DNA of 64,000 bases from NCBI RefSeq assembly GCF_036250675.1, contig NZ_CP109592.1, positions 1,302,001-1,366,000 on the forward strand, given 5' to 3'. The notes below the pieces were generated by a model. It made no database searches and had not been told where the DNA came from. It worked only from the letters and a program-made list of their open reading frames with translations. Position 1 is the stretch's first letter. Each line of letters begins with the position of its first letter. A program made the position numbers and the translations under genes. Positions 24,809 to 50,567 of this stretch are shown here, piece after piece. Source of the DNA: Streptomyces sp. NBC_01689 (GTDB lineage: Bacteria; Actinomycetota; Actinomycetes; Streptomycetales; Streptomycetaceae).

Positions 24809-24825
24809 ACGACTGAGCATCCGAC

Positions 24826-24873
24826 CACCTGAGCACCTGAGCACCTGAGCACCTGAGCACCTGAGCACCTGAT
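24826..24873 (+). repeat. Octamer tandem repeat (CACCTGAG x5, then CACCTGAT)
   Basis: Five perfect copies of CACCTGAG run head to tail from 24826 to 24865, followed by CACCTGAT. The array starts 18 bases after the oxidoreductase stop. It is not within a gene and has no spacers, so it is a simple-sequence tract, probably variable in copy number. Confidence 0.9.
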
Positions 24874-41735: not shown

Positions 41736-42802
41736 ACGCTCCGAAACACGGTGACGAGGTCGAGCGCCAGGAGCTGTCCCACCTGCTGCCGCGCCCCGGC
41801 ACACCAGGTCTCTCTCCCGCCCGGTCTCAACGTCTTGAGGAATATCTGATGCAGGAAGTCACCCAGGCCGGCACCCAGGCACAGGCGGCCCCCGCCGCCG
41901 CTGTGAAGCGTGGTATGCCGCGCTGGAGCCTGATCGCCGCACCGGCCGCAGCCCTGGCCGTCGCCGCGGCGGTCGCGGTCAGCGTCACCGGCTCCGGCGA
42001 CGGCATGAGCCCCGACGACAGTGTGGCCATGGCGTCGGTCATCACGGTGCAGCCCGCCTCGGCCCACGGCGCCACGGCTTTCCTGAGCCAGGTCGCGGAC
42101 GCGGCGAGCAAGCAGAAGACACCCGCCGTGGGCGCCCACCAGTTCATCTACATCAAGAGCAAGGTCGGCTTCACCCACCAGGTCAAACAGCGCACCATCG
42201 GCGGCCCGGCCAAGCTCGACGCCGTCCACCAGCGCGAAGTATGGCTCGCAGCAGACCCCTCCAAGAACGGCCTCATCCACGAGGGCGGCCAGAACATCAC
42301 CATCCACAACAGCGGCCCGGGCGTGGTCAACCCCGACGAAGCGTCCCAGCCCCCCAGGCCCGGCACCGTCCCCCAGATCGCGTCACTGTCCACCGACCCC
42401 GACACACTGCTGAAGCAGATCTACACCGCCACCCGCGGCCAGGCCCCCGGCAAGGACGCCGCCGCGTTCAACTGGGTCGGCGAGACCGTGTCCGAATCGA
42501 TCGTCCCCGGTGACGTCGCCTCCTCCATCTGGCGGGCCGCCGCGAAGATCCCCGGCGTCGTCCTCGTCAAGGACGCCACCGACGCGGCCGGCCGCCACGG
42601 CGAAGCCATCGCCCACGTCGCAGGCGGCGAACGCACCGAATACATCTTCGACCGCAACACCCACCTGTTCCTCGGCGAGCGCAGCTACCTCATCAAGGAC
42701 ACCCCCGAAGGCAAGGCCGGCATGCTCACCGGCACCAGCGCAGTCCTCTCCCGCGCCGTCGTGAACAAGATCGGTGACCACCCCACGGGCACCCGCGCCT
42801 GA
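41732..42802 (+). CDS. CU044_5270-family protein, probable sigma partner
   Basis: 356 residues; the ATG overlaps the sigma stop (ATGA). A cytosolic N-terminus of about 60 residues (HGDEVERQELSHLLPRPGTP, ARSQRLEEYLMQEV) precedes one membrane helix (RWSLIAAPAAALAVAAAVAV) and a large outer domain. That domain has TAFLSQVADAASKQKTPAVG, AHQFIYIKSKVGFTHQVKQ, AAKIPGVVLVKDATDAAGRH and EYIFDRNTHLFLGERSYLIK. This order defines the CU044_5270 family, which follows ECF sigma genes in actinomycetes. The inner part may hold the sigma factor. No zinc anti-sigma HxxxCxxC motif is present. Confidence 0.88.
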   Translation: MNAPKHGDEVERQELSHLLPRPGTPGLSPARSQRLEEYLMQEVTQAGTQAQAAPAAAVKRGMPRWSLIAAPAAALAVAAAVAVSVTGSGDGMSPDDSVAMASVITVQPASAHGATAFLSQVADAASKQKTPAVGAHQFIYIKSKVGFTHQVKQRTIGGPAKLDAVHQREVWLAADPSKNGLIHEGGQNITIHNSGPGVVNPDEASQPPRPGTVPQIASLSTDPDTLLKQIYTATRGQAPGKDAAAFNWVGETVSESIVPGDVASSIWRAAAKIPGVVLVKDATDAAGRHGEAIAHVAGGERTEYIFDRNTHLFLGERSYLIKDTPEGKAGMLTGTSAVLSRAVVNKIGDHPTGTRA

Positions 42803-43053
42803 CCCCCACACCACCCCACCGCCCGGCCGCCGACCATTCACTCAGCAGCCGGGCGGACCCATCTCCCCACGGCCTGGCATGAGCGGAGAAACGTCGCCTG
42901 ACAAGAGCTCGTACGGCGACAGACACTCGGCCTTGCCTTCAGCCGGATCAACGGCCTTTCCACCGCGGGTGGTTCGCCGTCGCGGTTCGAGCCACGAGGA
43001 ACGGTGGGTGAGCCCGGCCCTGCGGTCATGCCCCCGATGCGGTCTGTCAGTGT

Positions 43054-43128
43054 GCCTTCGGAGTTGGGTGACACCCCTCCCGGGCCATGCACTCGACAAG
43101 GGGAGGTAGTCGGGCCAACTCCGAAGGC
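43054..43128. terminator. 14-bp inverted repeat between convergent genes
   Basis: GCCTTCGGAGTTGG at 43054-43067 and its perfect complement at 43115-43128 enclose 47 bases. It lies between the sigma operon and the repeat-peptide gene, which converge. It may act as a shared terminator; the wide loop is unusual. Confidence 0.5.
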
Positions 43129-43181
43129 CGGTTACCGCGTTGCGCGGCCAGGACAACGGTATTGCGGCGGTCCGGGCCGTT

Positions 43182-43535
43182 TCAGCTGTGGTTCAGGGAC
43201 CACTCGACCTGGTCCTGGTACCAGCGGACGGGAGTGATGACGCTGTCCGACGAGGTCGCTTCGTCGACCTGGTCCTGGTACCAGCGGGCGGGAGTGATGA
43301 CGCTGTCCGACGAGGTCGCTTCGTCGACCTGGTCCTGGTACCAGCGGGCGGCGGTGACGCCGTGGAACGAGGTCGCTTCGCCCTGGTGGTCCGCGGCCTG
43401 CACGGACACGTGCTGCATGTGCTGTGCGGGCACCATAGCGGTGGTGGCCGACGCCGAGCCGGCCCCGAGAAGCGCTCCGCCGGCCAGCGCCGTGGTGGCG
43501 AGTGCGATCGAGAGGCGCTTCGTCATGCTGCTCAT
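43182..43535 (-). CDS. Secreted protein with near-identical 20-residue repeats
   Basis: 117 residues from the ATG at 43535, seven bases after GGGA; another ATG at 43541 is possible. A signal peptide (MTKRLSIALATTALAGGALL, ending GSASA) is followed by a short leader (TTAMVPAQHMQHVSVQAADH). Then come three copies of RWYQDQV, each preceded by a Glu-Ala-Thr-Ser block. Two complete units are RWYQDQVDEATSSDSVITP; the last copy is RWYQDQVEWSLNHS at the C-terminus. The repeats are almost exact at DNA level. I do not recognise a family. It could be a surface or wall protein, or a precursor cut into several copies of one peptide. The promoter region is shared with a TetR gene. Confidence 0.72.
   Translation of the reverse strand: MSSMTKRLSIALATTALAGGALLGAGSASATTAMVPAQHMQHVSVQAADHQGEATSFHGVTAARWYQDQVDEATSSDSVITPARWYQDQVDEATSSDSVITPVRWYQDQVEWSLNHS
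43204..43378. repeat. 60-bp tandem repeats inside the secreted-protein gene
   Basis: The phrase GACCTGGTCCTGGTACCAGC recurs at 43206, 43266 and 43326, exactly 60 bases apart. The first two units (43204-43263 and 43264-43323) differ by very few bases. The third diverges after about 30 bases. Because the period is a multiple of three, gain or loss of a unit keeps the gene in frame. Confidence 0.92.
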
Positions 43536-43645
43536 GGTCATTTCCCTTACAAACTGCCGCGGCTCCGCCGATCCGGCGGGCGCCGCTTGCATGTGAACCG
43601 AGATCCGGAAATCCCGGGTCGGTCGGCTGGCTTCAAGGTCATCCG

Positions 43646-43780
43646 GAGGGGTACCTCACGTTTGACTCCGCCACCGTACCCGAGGGATGCCTCATGTTTG
43701 CGGTGAGCATCGTCACAGCACGTCAACGGCGTGAGATTGCGATCGGAAACACGAAATTGCTCCAATTGGAGGGGTGCCTC
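43646..43780. promoter_or_regulatory. Three operator-like repeats between the repeat-protein and TetR genes
   Basis: GAGGGGTACCTC (43646-43657), GAGGGATGCCTC (43682-43693) and GAGGGGTGCCTC (43769-43780) each pair GAGG with CCTC and are each followed by AYGTT (ACGTT, ATGTT, ATGTT). The first two lie in the promoter space between the divergent genes, and the third is just before the TetR start. They are likely binding sites for the TetR protein; the pairing is inferred. Confidence 0.6.
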
Positions 43781-43797
43781 ATGTTACTGTCGAGCAC

Positions 43798-44496
43798 ATG
43801 AGCCACCACCACGCCCCGTCCCTGAGCGAGCCTCCGGCGAAACCCCTGCGCCGTGACGCACAGCGCAACAGGGAGGCGATCGTGGCCGCCGCCCGCACAG
43901 CCTTCGCCGAGCAGGGCCTCGGGGCGTCCCTGGAGGGCGTCGCGCGCGAGGCCGGGGTCGCGATCGGCACCCTCTACCGCCACTTCCCCACCCGGCTCGA
44001 CCTGGTCGAGACGCTCTTCAACGCGAAGTACACGGAACTGCTCGCCACTGCGGAAGAGGCCGCGGTCCTGGACGACGCCTGGGAGGGGTTCTGCCGCTAC
44101 ATGGAGAAACTCTGCCAGCTGCAGGCCTGCGACCGCGCCTTCAACGACCTGGTCTCGGCGCGGCTGCCCCTGCACGCGGCCGGCCGCGAGATGCACGAAC
44201 GCGCCAAGGAGATCTGCACCCAGGTCATGCGCAGCGCCCAGGAACAGGGCGTCCTGCGCGACGACGTCACTCCGCAGGACATCGCCTTCGTGATCTGGTC
44301 CCAGGCCGGGATCATCCAGGCCACCCGCACCGTCGCCCCCCGGGCCTGGCGCCGTCACCTCTACCTGATGCTCGACGGCTTCCGAGCCCAAGGCGCCCAC
44401 CCCCTTCCCGAACCTCCTCTGACCAGCGAGCAGGCTGACGAGACCCTCATCGCGCTCAAGTGCAACGAAGAGGACTGCCGCGAACAACGGCCCTGA
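43798..44496 (+). CDS. TetR/AcrR-family transcriptional regulator
   Basis: 232 residues from the ATG at 43798 (MSHHHAPSLSEPPAKPLRRD). A GTG at 43774 in the same frame is also possible but would place the start inside the third operator-like repeat. The DNA-binding domain covers residues about 18-65: NREAIVAAARTAFAEQGLGA, SLEGVAREAGVAIGTLYRHF and PTRLDLVETLF. The ligand domain is of the type with a C-terminal TetR_C-like helix bundle (YMEKLCQLQACDRAFNDLVS, DVTPQDIAFVIWSQAGIIQA). It is divergent from the repeat-protein gene, and three similar palindromic repeats lie between them. Confidence 0.87.
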   Translation: MSHHHAPSLSEPPAKPLRRDAQRNREAIVAAARTAFAEQGLGASLEGVAREAGVAIGTLYRHFPTRLDLVETLFNAKYTELLATAEEAAVLDDAWEGFCRYMEKLCQLQACDRAFNDLVSARLPLHAAGREMHERAKEICTQVMRSAQEQGVLRDDVTPQDIAFVIWSQAGIIQATRTVAPRAWRRHLYLMLDGFRAQGAHPLPEPPLTSEQADETLIALKCNEEDCREQRP

Positions 44497-45190
44497 CCCG
44501 CGCCGTCACACACCCCCCACACGGCACAGTGTGAGGGCGTCTTCCGCAACGTCGGCCTCCCCCGGCGGACCCGGCACGTTCACTGCGGGCTTCTGGTCCG
44601 AAAGGGCGATGCCGGGTAAGCGTCCCACCGCCGCCTGCACCGAGCCACAGCGGCCGCCCCGTCGACACCGGGTGTCCTGGCTCGAACTCGGGCGGCGGTA
44701 CACCGTGTTGCGGCCCAGCACCGCCCGCCGGAAGCGGTTGCCAACGCCCTCAGCCGGCTCAAGCGGGAATTCAGGTAGCACGTGGTCCTCTTCTTTGGTG
44801 ACGGCGGCGGATTCAAGCAAGCCCTCCTGCGACCCGGCCTCGGAGCCGAGAAGGTGGCCCGCCTACTGACCGCCGCAGGCGGCAGGACCACCGCGGCCTC
44901 ACTGCGGCCCGCGCAGGTCAACGCCTGCCCGGTGCTGATCCTCCGGCTCGACGACGCGATCGACACGGTCTTGGCGGTAGGCATCGAGGCGCCCTCATCA
45001 CCGGGCTCTACGTCGTCCGCAATCCCGAGCAGCTGTCGCACATGCAGCGAGAGACGGTCCTTAGCCGCTGAGAGGCGGCGTCCGACGCACGAGCGACAGA
45101 GGAGCGGGAATCGGTCACTGGCCGACACACAGGCTTGCTACGTTCTTGATCGGCTTTCGAATGCGGTCGTCGGTGAGTTGGAGGGTTTCG
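44497..45190. other. Gap with possible gene fragments
   Basis: 690 bases. A plus frame near 44775-44990 (VVLFFGDGGGFKQALLRPGL, LRPAQVNACPVLILRLDDAI) looks coding but has no proper start and ends in low-quality sequence. A minus frame (44506-44820) is also open. I cannot assign a family to either; a decayed gene is possible. Confidence 0.3.
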
Positions 45191-46477: not shown

Positions 46478-49400
46478 TTGCGCATACCTCCGTCGCCCAG
46501 ACGCGGGCTGACTGTCGCGGTCGCCGTGCTCGTGGCACTGACGACCACCGGACCGGCCGTTTCGGCCGGAACTCCCCTCTCCTCCACCACATCCGCCGCC
46601 GGACGTCCGCAGGCCACGGGTACCGTCACGCTGATCACCGGTGACAAGGTCGCGGTGACCGTCAGCAACGGCCGTACCAGCGCCAGCGTCACGGATCCGC
46701 ACGGCAGGCCCGGCGGCGCCCATGTCATGACGGTCGGCCCCGACACCTACGTGTACCCGGACGCGGCACTGCCCTACATCGCGTCAGGAGCACTCGACGA
46801 GCGGCTGTTCAACGTCAACGAACTGCTCGATGACGGCTACGACGACAGCCACAGCGACCGACTGCCGCTGATCGTCACCTACACCGATGCCGCCGCCCGT
46901 TCCCGTAGCGCGAAGACCCCGGACGGTGCGCGCAGGACCCTGACACTCAGCAGCATCCAGGGCGCCGCGATATCCACCGAACACGCGCGGACGACGGACT
47001 TCTGGACCTCCCTCACCGGCAGCGCGGGGGCCGGGGCGGGAGCGCGCTCGACCGCGAACGCGCACCCGTCCGGGCGGCTGACGGGCGGGATCGCCAAGGT
47101 GTGGCTGGACGGCAAGGCCAAGGCGACGCTGTCCGACACCACCGCGCAGATCGGCGCACCTGAGGTCTGGGCGGGCGGGGACACCGGCCAAGGCGTGGAC
47201 GTCGCCGTGCTGGACACGGGAATCGACGCGGCGCACCCGGACTTCGCGGGGCGGATCGCCGCGTCGGAGAGCTTCGTGCCGGGACAGGACGTCACCGACC
47301 GGCACGGCCACGGCACGCATGTCGCCTCGACCGTCGCCGGCACGGGCGCAGCGTCCGACGGCAAGGAGAAGGGGGTGGCTCCGGGCGCTTCGCTGCACAT
47401 CGGCAAGGTCCTGAACAACGATGGCAGCGGCCAGGACTCCTGGATCCTGGCCGGCATGGAGTGGGCCGCCCGCGACCAGCACGCGAAGATCGTCAGCATG
47501 AGCCTGGGCGGTGACCCCACCGACGGCACCGACCCACTGAGCCAGGCCGTCAACCGGCTCAGCGAGGAGACCGGGGCGCTGTTCGTCATCGCCGCGGGCA
47601 ACTCCGGCCCGGAGGCGTACAGCATCGGCGCGCCGGGTGCGGCGGACGCCGCGCTGACGGTCGGCGCGGTGAACGGTCCGGGCAAGGGCGTGGACCAGCT
47701 GGCGGAGTTCTCCAGCCGCGGGCCGCGCGTCGGCGACAACGCCGTCAAGCCCGACCTGACCGCTCCCGGCGTCGACATTCTCGCTGCCCGGTCGCAGTAC
47801 GCGCCCGAGGGCGAGGGCGCGTACCAGACCATGAGCGGCACGTCGATGGCGACGCCCCATGTCGCGGGCGCCGCAGCCCTCTTGGCGCAGAAGCATCCGG
47901 ACTGGAACGGACGGCAGCTCAAGGACGCGCTGGTCGGCACCACCGCCAGTACGCGGCAGTCCAGCCCGTACCAGGGCGGTAGCGGGCGGCTCGACATCGC
48001 CGCGGCCGTGAAGGCCACCGTGGTCGCCTCCGGTTCCGCGTTCGCCCAGGTCCACTACCCGTATCCACCCGGACAGACGGTTCGCAAGGACGTCACCTAC
48101 AGCAACTTCGCGGCCGAGCCGGTCACCCTGGACCTGGGTCTCGTCGCGGACAACATCCCCGACGGGCTGTTCACCCTCACCGACCCCCGTCCGACCGTCC
48201 CCGCCCACGGCACCGCGACCGTCGGTGTGATCACCCACCTCGACCGGGCCGCGGACAACGCCGCCTACACCAGTCAGCTCACCGCCACCGGCCCCGACGG
48301 CACGATTCGCGCCCGTACCCCGGTCGGTGTGAACAAGGAGGGCCGGCGCGTCAAGCTGTCGGTCACCGCGAAGGACCGCAAGGGCGGGGGGCTGCCGGGC
48401 TCCCTCGTGCTCAAGGACATCGACCGGAACACCGTTCCCAAGGTGTACACCGTCGACTCCTCCGGCACCCTCGACCTCAGCCTGGTGCCGAGCACCTACG
48501 CGGCCTGGATGTACGCCGACGTCCCCGGCATCGACGGCACGCACACCCTGGGCCTGGGCCTGTTCTCCGCACCGGAGGTCGACCTCGCCGACGACCGGGC
48601 GCTCCACTTCGACGCAGCCGACCTCCACCAGGCCGCGGCACTCACGCCGCAGCCGACCGCCAACAGCTTCATGCGGGTGGACCAGTACCGGTCGAACGGC
48701 GGCATGCTCCCGTTCCTGGACAGCTACATGCCCGAGTACTGGCGCTACGACAGCCTCTGGGCGGCCGCGACACCCAAGGTGACACGGGGCTCGTACACCT
48801 TCGCGACGCGCTGGCGGCAGATCGAGCGGCCACTGACCTTCTCACTGGGCTCCCAGACGTACGAGAGCGCCGTCGTGCAGAGCCTGTCCCCCATGCTGCC
48901 CGAGGGCAGCAACCGGTACCGGGCCGTCTGGGCCGGGGACGGTTCGGCCGCGGACTTCGGCAGGCTCAAGATCCGTGGCCAGGTGGCGGTCGTCCGCCGC
49001 AGCGACTCCGTGTCCGCCCCTGACCAGGCCACGGCCGCGGCGAAGGCCGGCGCCAAGCTGCTCCTGATCCTCAACGACGGCTACGGAAAGCTGGATCCCT
49101 GGGCCGACCTGCCAGACGCCGCACCACTGCCGGTGGCCTCGCTCGGCACCGACGACAGCGTCCGTCTGCGCAGCGGCCTTCACTGGCCCGGAGCAGGACT
49201 GCTGAAGGTGGTCTCGCACCCCCAGCCGCATTATCTGTACGACCTGGTGCGGCACTACGACGGCGCGGTTCCCCGGAGCCTGACGTACCGGCCCGGTCCG
49301 GGCGATCTCGCCAGGATCGACGAGTCGTTCCGCGACACCAAGCAGGGCAAGGCCGTACAGATACGGTACGACCTCACCGTCGACTCCGGTCGGCCGCTGA

Positions 49401-50233
49401 ACAGCAACGCCACCCCCGTCCCGGCCCAGGGCACCCTCACCTCGTGGGTGACAGCCGATCCCGGCGTCTCATGGGTGACCCAGGCCGCCGTCAGCGACCT
49501 CAGCCAGCAGGGCTCTCCACACTCGTACAAGGGGCGCGGCACTTCCGGCGAGGTCTGGTTCTCTCCCGTCCAGCATCCGCGGCTCCTCGACGACAGCGCC
49601 CACCGCGCCCCCTTCAGGATCGGCGACATCATCAGCACGTCATCGATCTCCGCGTGGGGGGACTCCGACAGCCACGCGGGTGTCGCCTACGCCGACGGCG
49701 ACACCTCGACGATCTCCCTCTACCAGGGTGACCAGCTGCTCGGCGAAGAAGTCAACGAACGGATCGTCACCGTCGAAGGCCTACCGACGGATCCGCTGCC
49801 GTACCGGATCGTGGTGGAGGGTAAGCGTGATCTGCCGGGCCGGCCGTACTCGACCCGGACCCGTACCGAATGGGGATTCACCTCCGGCACCACGGACTAC
49901 AGGGTCCTCAGCCCTCTGCCGCTCATCCAGCTGGACTACGCGGTGGACACCGACCTCTCCGGCCGGGCGAGCCGGCACGGCGCGCTGACCGTCACTCCCT
50001 CGCACTTCAAGGGCGCGACGGGTGCCGCCTCGGTCCGCACCGTGGGCCTTGAGGTTTCCTACGACGACGGCGCCACCTGGCACCGGACGACCCTGCGCCA
50101 CTCGGGGACGGACTGGAAGACGTCGCTCGACGCCCCCTCCAAGGCGAGGTTCGCGAGCCTGCGGACGACCGCACGGGACACCCATGGCAACAGCGTCAGC
50201 CAGACCGTGATCCGCGCCTTCGGTCTCAAGTAG
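46478..50233 (+). CDS. Secreted S8 (subtilisin-family) serine peptidase, multidomain
   Basis: 1251 residues from a TTG with GAGG about seven bases upstream. A signal peptide (RRGLTVAVAVLVALTTTGPA, ending VSAG) leads to a propeptide-like region up to about 215. The catalytic domain has the Asp near 245 (VAVLDTGIDAAHPDF), the His near 278 (DRHGHGTHVASTVAG) and the Ser near 455 (MSGTSMATPHVAGAAAL). A PA-like insert lies about 830-870 (VAVVRRSDSVSAPDQATAAA, KAGAKLLLILNDGY). Long beta-rich C-terminal domains follow. It degrades protein outside the cell. No sorting signal or membrane anchor is seen at the C-terminus, so it should be released. A hairpin ends the unit. Confidence 0.93.
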   Translation: MRIPPSPRRGLTVAVAVLVALTTTGPAVSAGTPLSSTTSAAGRPQATGTVTLITGDKVAVTVSNGRTSASVTDPHGRPGGAHVMTVGPDTYVYPDAALPYIASGALDERLFNVNELLDDGYDDSHSDRLPLIVTYTDAAARSRSAKTPDGARRTLTLSSIQGAAISTEHARTTDFWTSLTGSAGAGAGARSTANAHPSGRLTGGIAKVWLDGKAKATLSDTTAQIGAPEVWAGGDTGQGVDVAVLDTGIDAAHPDFAGRIAASESFVPGQDVTDRHGHGTHVASTVAGTGAASDGKEKGVAPGASLHIGKVLNNDGSGQDSWILAGMEWAARDQHAKIVSMSLGGDPTDGTDPLSQAVNRLSEETGALFVIAAGNSGPEAYSIGAPGAADAALTVGAVNGPGKGVDQLAEFSSRGPRVGDNAVKPDLTAPGVDILAARSQYAPEGEGAYQTMSGTSMATPHVAGAAALLAQKHPDWNGRQLKDALVGTTASTRQSSPYQGGSGRLDIAAAVKATVVASGSAFAQVHYPYPPGQTVRKDVTYSNFAAEPVTLDLGLVADNIPDGLFTLTDPRPTVPAHGTATVGVITHLDRAADNAAYTSQLTATGPDGTIRARTPVGVNKEGRRVKLSVTAKDRKGGGLPGSLVLKDIDRNTVPKVYTVDSSGTLDLSLVPSTYAAWMYADVPGIDGTHTLGLGLFSAPEVDLADDRALHFDAADLHQAAALTPQPTANSFMRVDQYRSNGGMLPFLDSYMPEYWRYDSLWAAATPKVTRGSYTFATRWRQIERPLTFSLGSQTYESAVVQSLSPMLPEGSNRYRAVWAGDGSAADFGRLKIRGQVAVVRRSDSVSAPDQATAAAKAGAKLLLILNDGYGKLDPWADLPDAAPLPVASLGTDDSVRLRSGLHWPGAGLLKVVSHPQPHYLYDLVRHYDGAVPRSLTYRPGPGDLARIDESFRDTKQGKAVQIRYDLTVDSGRPLNSNATPVPAQGTLTSWVTADPGVSWVTQAAVSDLSQQGSPHSYKGRGTSGEVWFSPVQHPRLLDDSAHRAPFRIGDIISTSSISAWGDSDSHAGVAYADGDTSTISLYQGDQLLGEEVNERIVTVEGLPTDPLPYRIVVEGKRDLPGRPYSTRTRTEWGFTSGTTDYRVLSPLPLIQLDYAVDTDLSGRASRHGALTVTPSHFKGATGAASVRTVGLEVSYDDGATWHRTTLRHSGTDWKTSLDAPSKARFASLRTTARDTHGNSVSQTVIRAFGLK

Positions 50234-50371: not shown

Positions 50372-50567
50372 ATCCAGCTCAAGGGCCACCCCTGCTCCGG
50401 TCATCCGGCGACCGAGCGACGGAAGGTGGGCCGGCGCATCCGAAACGCCGTCCGGGCACGGTGCGCCCATCCAGCTCAAGGGCCACCCCTGCTCCGGTCA
50501 TCCGGCGACCGAGCGACGGAAGGTGGGCCGGCGCATCCGAAACGCCGTCCGGGCACGGTGCGCCCAT
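50372..50567 (+). repeat. 97-bp perfect tandem duplication
   Basis: The block 50372-50468 is repeated at 50469-50565 without change that I can see, and the first two bases recur again. It sits between the subtilisin terminator and the LLM oxidoreductase gene. Duplicating it also lengthens a spurious open frame through the region. Confidence 0.92.

Follow-up and report, generated by a model that had tools for sequence, protein, structure and literature searches.

The window, by which we mean the whole stretch of 64,000 nucleotides of Streptomyces sp. NBC_01689 that was analysed, carries on its minus strand (43182–43535) an open reading frame of 117 amino acids, recognised by reading of the frame and by homologue search, with an ATG start codon at 43535 and AGGGAA ahead of it. 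By reading, the N-terminus follows the pattern of a Sec signal peptide, with lysine/arginine residues and a hydrophobic stretch (approximately residues 1–30, 43446–43535, minus strand), cleavage being likely between ASA and TT; this N-terminus is conserved in the homologues. Homologue comparison placed three RWYQDQV cores, all on the minus strand, at residues 64–70 (core 1, 43326–43346), 84–90 (core 2, 43266–43286) and 104–110 (core 3, 43206–43226), at a spacing of 20 residues with linkers of 13 residues between them, the last core being followed by seven C-terminal residues, EWSLNHS. The ORF reading and the homologue alignment thus bear out the sequence-only reading that this is an exported chain in which RWYQDQV recurs three times at 20-residue intervals. 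The mature chain is rich in tryptophan and tyrosine and strongly acidic (8 Asp and 4 Glu against 3 Arg, one inside each core, and no Lys), and has no Cys.

At the DNA level, Tandem Repeats Finder reported an array of 3.0 copies of 60 bp (43204–43380, minus strand) with a score of 291, the second highest among the 8 arrays in the window; another of these (24813–24872) consists of 7.5 copies of CTGAGCAC. The claim that the 60-bp repeats are almost identical holds for two copies, 43204–43263 and 43264–43323, with a single difference in 60 bases. It fails for the third (43324–43383, encoding the first repeat of the protein), which is 70% identical, so one duplication is recent and the other older. 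A palindrome within the DNA repeats, CTGGTACCAG, was discarded as a candidate feature, since it coincides with the WYQ codons and, judging from the protein rows, homologues with WYE would lose it. Beyond the stop codon lies a perfect 14-nt inverted repeat with arms at 43054–43067 and 43115–43128, possibly a terminator, possibly a chance occurrence.

A search of approximately 5.8 billion proteins (E ≤ 0.001) found 51 homologues, and every row with a source name was from Streptomyces, some rows being labelled merely ‘hypothetical protein’. Forty-four of the homologues (P0001–P0044) are multi-core proteins with two (26), three (16) or four (2) complete cores, some counts being minima, given that P0009, P0020 and P0025 are incomplete sequences. 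The remaining seven are single-core proteins, and using one of them (P0049) as the query of a second search enlarged this more distant set to 40 proteins, 39 of which contain one core; the exception, P0084, has two, which look like an independent duplication. Copy number has also varied close to the window protein, with P0008 having two cores and matching 78% of the query at 81% identity, and the source genome carries two more copies of the module (L002 and L003) with four cores each. The two-core form of P0008 fits a recent change in copy number, as had been proposed.

Alignment and the homologue searches defined a conserved N-terminus, [KR]R.SIA followed by TALAGG.LLG..GSASA, which is present in the window protein, and a C-terminal module, E-A-x-[ST]-x-x-G-V-x-x-x-R-W-Y-x-D-Q-[VL], which occurs three times in the window protein, once in its single-core relatives and is lacking from looser SALP-linked relatives (SALP, SsgA-like protein). 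A profile search located members or loose relatives in 40 of 392 sampled Streptomyces genomes, a count in which not every match was inspected. Separately, three exported proteins with a similar signal peptide (L011:1498–2022, L034:1207–1707 and L012:1219–1689) end in runs of DRDWDRNDRDSNR-type repeats, which is a second, different repeat expansion.

Comparison of cores with linkers had been suggested as a check on whether the chain is a precursor cut into several peptides, a reading that linkers as conserved as the cores would have contradicted. The cores proved the more conserved, with mean identities of 0.83 against 0.60 for linkers between proteins (1932 pairs) and 0.85 against 0.67 within proteins (21 pairs), related sequences not being down-weighted in either figure. 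Across 63 core-preceded units the Asp and Gln of the core are invariant, the Arg, Trp, Tyr and Val nearly so and the fourth position is free; Arg, Trp, Asp and Gln are nearly invariant in the multi-core and single-core sets alike. However, the idea of cores plus a disposable spacer is not supported. The length of the linker is nearly fixed (12 residues in 54 of 64 and 13 in 8 of 64), its A, S, V and A positions are about as conserved as those of the core, and the multi-core linkers can be aligned with the 12 residues that precede the core in the single-core proteins of the wider family. Single-core tails scored against multi-core linkers gave a mean BLOSUM62 score of 10.3 (on a subset), which was reached by none of 500 column-permuted controls (mean −6.7, maximum 5.7). 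With the linker homologous to the single-core flank, the duplicated unit is the whole C-terminal module of approximately 20 residues.

Multi-copy exported peptide precursors have a layout like that of yeast alpha-factor, and the window protein is similar in that short conserved cores recur behind its signal peptide. Under such a reading the chain would be cut, most simply by a trypsin-like enzyme after the core Arg, into near-identical 20-mers and a C-terminal 13-mer with signalling or bioactive function. The higher conservation of the cores is what a precursor predicts and is thereby also a point against an envelope protein. Moreover, the only Arg or Lys residues of the mature window chain are the three core Arg, Arg is found at this core position in 59 of 63 units of the multi-core proteins and in 37 of 40 rows of the single-core set, the chain ends seven residues after its last core in 39 of 44 and 32 of 40 proteins of these two classes, respectively (counted from alignment rows), and the neighbouring TetR regulator could sense the product. 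Against this, a single core is kept in 39 of the 40 wider-family proteins, and the near-constant linkers are homologous to the C-terminal domain of the wider family, with its single-copy members, which sets the family apart from alpha-factor-like precursors. Likewise, the window linkers offer no dibasic site, as the chain has no Lys and every Arg sits in a core; among the 44 homologues, P0037 has an RR ahead of its first core, and several others have a single additional Arg in their linkers. As the core Arg could still be a cut site, the precursor reading survives at a lower weight, and we regard it as unlikely; it is not preferred, given that whole modules are repeated and that the distant relatives are nearly all single-core.

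Searches for known domains in the window protein gave nothing above cut-off in Pfam, the best hit being Amelogenin (13.5 against 27 bits), with neither an enzyme domain nor a chaplin match (at E up to 1). In NCBIfam, MelC1 (NF047833) scored 19.3 bits, below the cut-off of 120 (E 0.00097), in a match over residues 1–69 that comprises the signal peptide, the leader and part of the first core. A profile search for relatives of solved structure returned no credible one (best E 0.11). AlphaFold2 modelled one helix per repeat in the window protein (residues 62–75, 82–94 and 102–116; 38 sequences, mean pLDDT 50, pTM 0.21) and a helix at 127–140 over the equivalent module of single-core P0049 (pLDDT 44), both models being of low confidence. 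The helical moment of the two internal repeat segments was reached by 2–4% of shuffled sequences; for the last repeat, for the core part of this repeat and for the tail of the single-core protein the share was 18–48%. An amphipathic helix was set aside. The acidic mature chain likewise disfavours a cationic, membrane-active peptide. A role as a transglutaminase substrate, suggested by the invariant Gln after aromatic residues, was weakened rather than excluded by the lack of a PF09017 match in the genome, as 14 control genomes were also silent.

The export, the amplified repeats, the Trp/Tyr-rich acidic chain and the lack of an enzyme domain in Pfam would all suit a structural protein of the surface or aerial hypha, acting independently of SsgA-like proteins (SALPs, considered below), in which the repeats lengthen the chain or make it stickier through self-assembly. 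The chaplins, the rodlins and the SapB precursor are small, surface-active, exported Streptomyces proteins, and the window protein resembles them in being small and exported; it differs from chaplins in the missing Pfam match and in having no Cys in its mature chain. The repeat-type surface protein, offered by the sequence-only reading as its second choice, fits the data better than the precursor, although no wall-anchoring motif was seen on reading the protein. Weighing against a purely structural role are the single copy kept by 39 of 40 wider-family members, the ceiling of two to four copies seen, the chaplin result and the linkage of single-core loci to SALP genes, and we consider this explanation somewhat unlikely.

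Divergent from the repeat gene lies a TetR-family regulator (43798–44496, plus strand), with a TetR_N domain (44.5 against a cut-off of 24 bits) and an SbtR-like C-terminal domain, TetR_C_43 (34.8 against 27 bits), in Pfam. A genome motif search and upstream alignment identified three putative operators on the minus strand between the two genes: AACGTGAGGTACCCCTC at 43646–43662, AACATGAGGCATCCCTC at 43682–43698 and AACATGAGGCACCCCTC at 43769–43785, directly before the TetR start, all conforming to the consensus AACRTGAGGNNNCCCTC. Genome-wide this consensus has 7 exact matches, all within the three modules of the genome, and 5 further sites at one mismatch against 2 for the backwards control. 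The one-mismatch sites include G000:C1:6425716, 6641775 and 429506 (L105, L106 and L102), which may represent a wider regulon or chance.

The operators recur in the relatives. Among the upstream regions of 11 distinct multi-core modules, 9 contain three operators, whereas L002 and L003 contain two each; one of the three has T for C in L036, L039, L040 and L041. Among seven single-core upstream regions, two operators are found in L042, L015 and L068, one in L014 and L016, one exact copy and one with a changed first base in L051, and near-matches only, one in the opposite orientation, in L049. A hexamer, TACG[GC]T, is shared by most of the upstream regions in the alignment, with the form TATGGT in L038, but was not seen in L014 and L016; in the window it corresponds to a candidate −10 box, TACGGT (43673–43678, minus strand), between operators 1 and 2. 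Its position between paired operators would be the expected place of a repressed promoter. We infer that the TetR protein most likely represses both its own gene and the repeat gene through AACRTGAGGNNNCCCTC, and the control of the repeat gene by TetR that had been suggested thus appears likely from the shared operators.

A family gene lies near 11 of the 12 TetR places of at least 64% identity. L050 encodes a 66% identical TetR in which one stop is reported, has no recognised repeat protein or SALP beside it and is possibly the relic of a decayed module. TetRs of the same regulator family at 54–58% identity to the window TetR (14 rows, 11 with a locus) differ in their setting: an SDR-like gene, judged by eye, adjoins 10 of the 11, a repeat protein none, and they form a separate group in the tree.

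DNA comparison among Streptomyces copies showed that the repeat gene and TetR gene form a module of approximately 1.35 kb, whose homology usually extends over 43163–44500. The homology of the window with eight other multi-core loci begins at 43163–43205 and ends at 44498–44500; that with L002 and L003 runs from 43204 to 44547 and 44483, respectively, with extra repeat pieces from 43178. Beyond the repeat-gene end of the module, some relatives have up to approximately 330 bp in common with one another, and a piece of 113 bp in L035 matches window positions 42756–42868 (76%). Four window neighbours (a sigma factor, a CU044_5270 family gene, a LuxR-type gene and a subtilase gene) are unmatched in nine other multi-core loci, in flanks of up to approximately 6 kb (shorter in L036 and L041). 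This result removes the subtilase (46478–50233) as a candidate maturation enzyme; that no maturation enzyme common to the loci was found is a further difference from alpha-factor-like precursors and counts against the precursor reading. Directly after the subtilase gene lies a perfect 97-bp tandem duplication (50372–50567).

The two other copies in the source genome, L002 and L003, share 99.0% identity over 1445 bp and have unrelated flanks; the match breaks off approximately 70 bp beyond the repeat gene on one side and at the stop codon of the TetR gene on the other. The L003 site is unoccupied in five of nine relatives (L091, L093, L094, L095 and L097), where the matched segments of the flanking ArsR-like and permease-like genes (named by eye) lie approximately 35–110 bp apart; in the source genome approximately 1.9 kb, including the module, lies between the same genes. 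In the other four relatives the match to the left neighbour is absent. By eye, neither terminal inverted repeats nor target-site duplications were found at the ends of L002 and L003, nor was a transposase seen. For the window copy, a search of 41 genomes yielded no unoccupied site, as the left flank was matched in other genomes at 69% over approximately 300 bases at best. At L003, approximately eight GTGTTCACG repeats (about 1075–1155) lie in the additional DNA that adjoins the inserted copy. The two genes of the module travel together, both within a genome and from one genome to another.

A mobile two-gene module, present in three copies in the source genome and evolving fast, could also be a cassette with its own repressor encoding a small exported effector or inhibitor directed against other strains. 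This we judge very unlikely, as the module has no third gene that could confer immunity, searches of the repeat protein in Pfam and NCBIfam found no toxin-like domain, and the chain is strongly acidic.

We examined the surroundings of the more distant relatives, which point to a connection with SALPs. The initial family search matched 20 of 392 genomes and gave 22 non-multi-core places, 21 of them with a locus. A SALP gene, matching the SsgA-like protein of L042, lies within 1.5 kb in 14 of these 21 loci, in 13 of the 14 downstream and co-directional at a distance of approximately 150–490 bp. In the set of 27 non-multi-core loci from the profile search, which overlaps with the 21, a SALP was matched in 23, a TetR in 5 and an operator (by a looser pattern) in 7. 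Restricting attention to single-core loci that bear the core leaves 8 distinct loci, of which 6 have a SALP directly downstream on the same strand, a feature shared with SALP loci of Streptomyces, among the closest known systems; L016, one of the two without, is close to masked sequence. Most of the SALP-linked distant proteins share the N-terminus only and lack the core, so they are looser relatives, which lowers confidence in the envelope reading favoured below. The two SALPs tested in Pfam both contain the SsgA domain (103 and 104 bits against a cut-off of 25), and that of L042 is SsgD-like in NCBIfam, at 98.9 bits below the SsgD cut-off of 185.

The window module differs from these loci in lacking a SALP. 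No SALP match was found beside any of the 11 distinct multi-core modules within the retrieved flanks, nor in the 64-kb window or in the DNA surrounding the two further modules of the genome (12 kb and 10 kb), so that the window protein is linked to the wall by ancestry only. In S. olivochromogenes, a second TetR and a SALP (L039:10865–12111) lie approximately 5 kb from the multi-core module, and this second TetR groups with the TetRs of the single-core loci.

According to passages of PMC4457907, SALPs are likely chaperone-like and act in peptidoglycan synthesis and remodelling, they steer septation and spore-wall building in Streptomyces, and ssgD mutants have defects of the lateral wall. No description of a small exported protein encoded next to an ssg gene was seen in the literature covered, which included passages of PMC4457907 and PMC4282423, nor is the repeat-protein family described in titles or the openings of abstracts, most subscription journals being beyond reach.

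The TetR tree (23 rows, drawn with midpoint rooting) places the 11 multi-core rows in one clade (support 97/98) and four single-core/SALP rows in another (99/96), one of the latter, L039b, having a visible SALP with the small gene beyond the retrieved DNA. Support for the node uniting these clades is 93/91, and a pair of SALP-linked rows at greater distance stands outside at 92/86, both values lying below the star threshold of the tool. Farther out come L050, without a recognised partner, and then the TetRs beside SDR-like genes. That the multi-core TetR branch is sister to loci with a single core and a SALP suggests loss of the SALP and amplification of the module. In the simplest order of events, a single core with a SALP and operators would have come first, followed by SALP loss, back-to-back pairing with TetR and amplification of the core.

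The repeat gene evolves fast and under weak constraint, with the frame kept. Its dN/dS ratios range from 0.46 to 0.79 in eight comparisons with the window and from 0.43 to 0.92 in all 11, those of TetR from 0.21 to 0.54. Such values across the 11 comparisons might also be expected of a decaying remnant that has lost its SALP partner, is little constrained and owes its repeats to slippage. We find this highly improbable, since the open frame, the cores and the operators are retained in all 11 distinct multi-core modules and the module has spread.

Taken together, the single-copy relatives, the conserved linker, the SALP linkage and the lack of dibasic sites speak for an exported protein of the envelope or surface, repressed by TetR, with a multiplied C-terminal binding module and a SALP-linked ancestry; we put this forward as a tentative reading, somewhat short of probable. 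Counting against it are the missing anchor motif, the lack of a Pfam family above cut-off and of a credible solved relative, the poor models, the weak constraint on the gene and the helical moments of the last repeat and the single-core tail, which do not exceed those of shuffles. The frequent placing of single-core relatives beside a SALP gene makes a wall or surface protein more likely than a chain of signalling peptides. The repeat protein would be a small, Sec-exported, acidic component of the Streptomyces cell envelope or surface, whose working part, the C-terminal module of approximately 20 residues EA.S.HGVSAARWYxDQV(xWSLNHS), is probably a short helix with which it would bind a partner. 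Relatives in the wider family end in a single such module; they are exported, D/R/H-rich proteins whose gene is usually followed directly by that of a SALP. The branch of the window has no SALP gene, and the repeat gene lies back to back with that of TetR, while unequal crossing-over would have raised the module to two to four copies and so given multivalent binding. Repression of both genes through the three copies of AACRTGAGGNNNCCCTC would be released by a signal, and the pair is mobile as one unit. A role of the protein in wall remodelling is suggested by this ancestry.

A further reading is a portable cassette for extracellular communication. The nearly invariant core Arg would be the cut site, the peptide WYxDQVxWxLxxx from the C-terminus, in most homologues a 13-mer, would be active in single- and multi-core forms alike, amplification would raise the dose, and TetR and, at the older loci, the SALP would couple the peptide to remodelling of septum and wall. 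We consider this quite unlikely.

To our knowledge, little is known of how SALPs act on the wall outside the cell. At most of the loci that we examined, a SALP gene directly follows the gene for an exported protein of the family described here, which makes this protein a candidate outside partner of SALPs. The window may be viewed as a natural experiment in which the module has been multiplied, separated from the SALP, given its own repressor and relocated between chromosomal sites, so that its role would be testable apart from the SALP.
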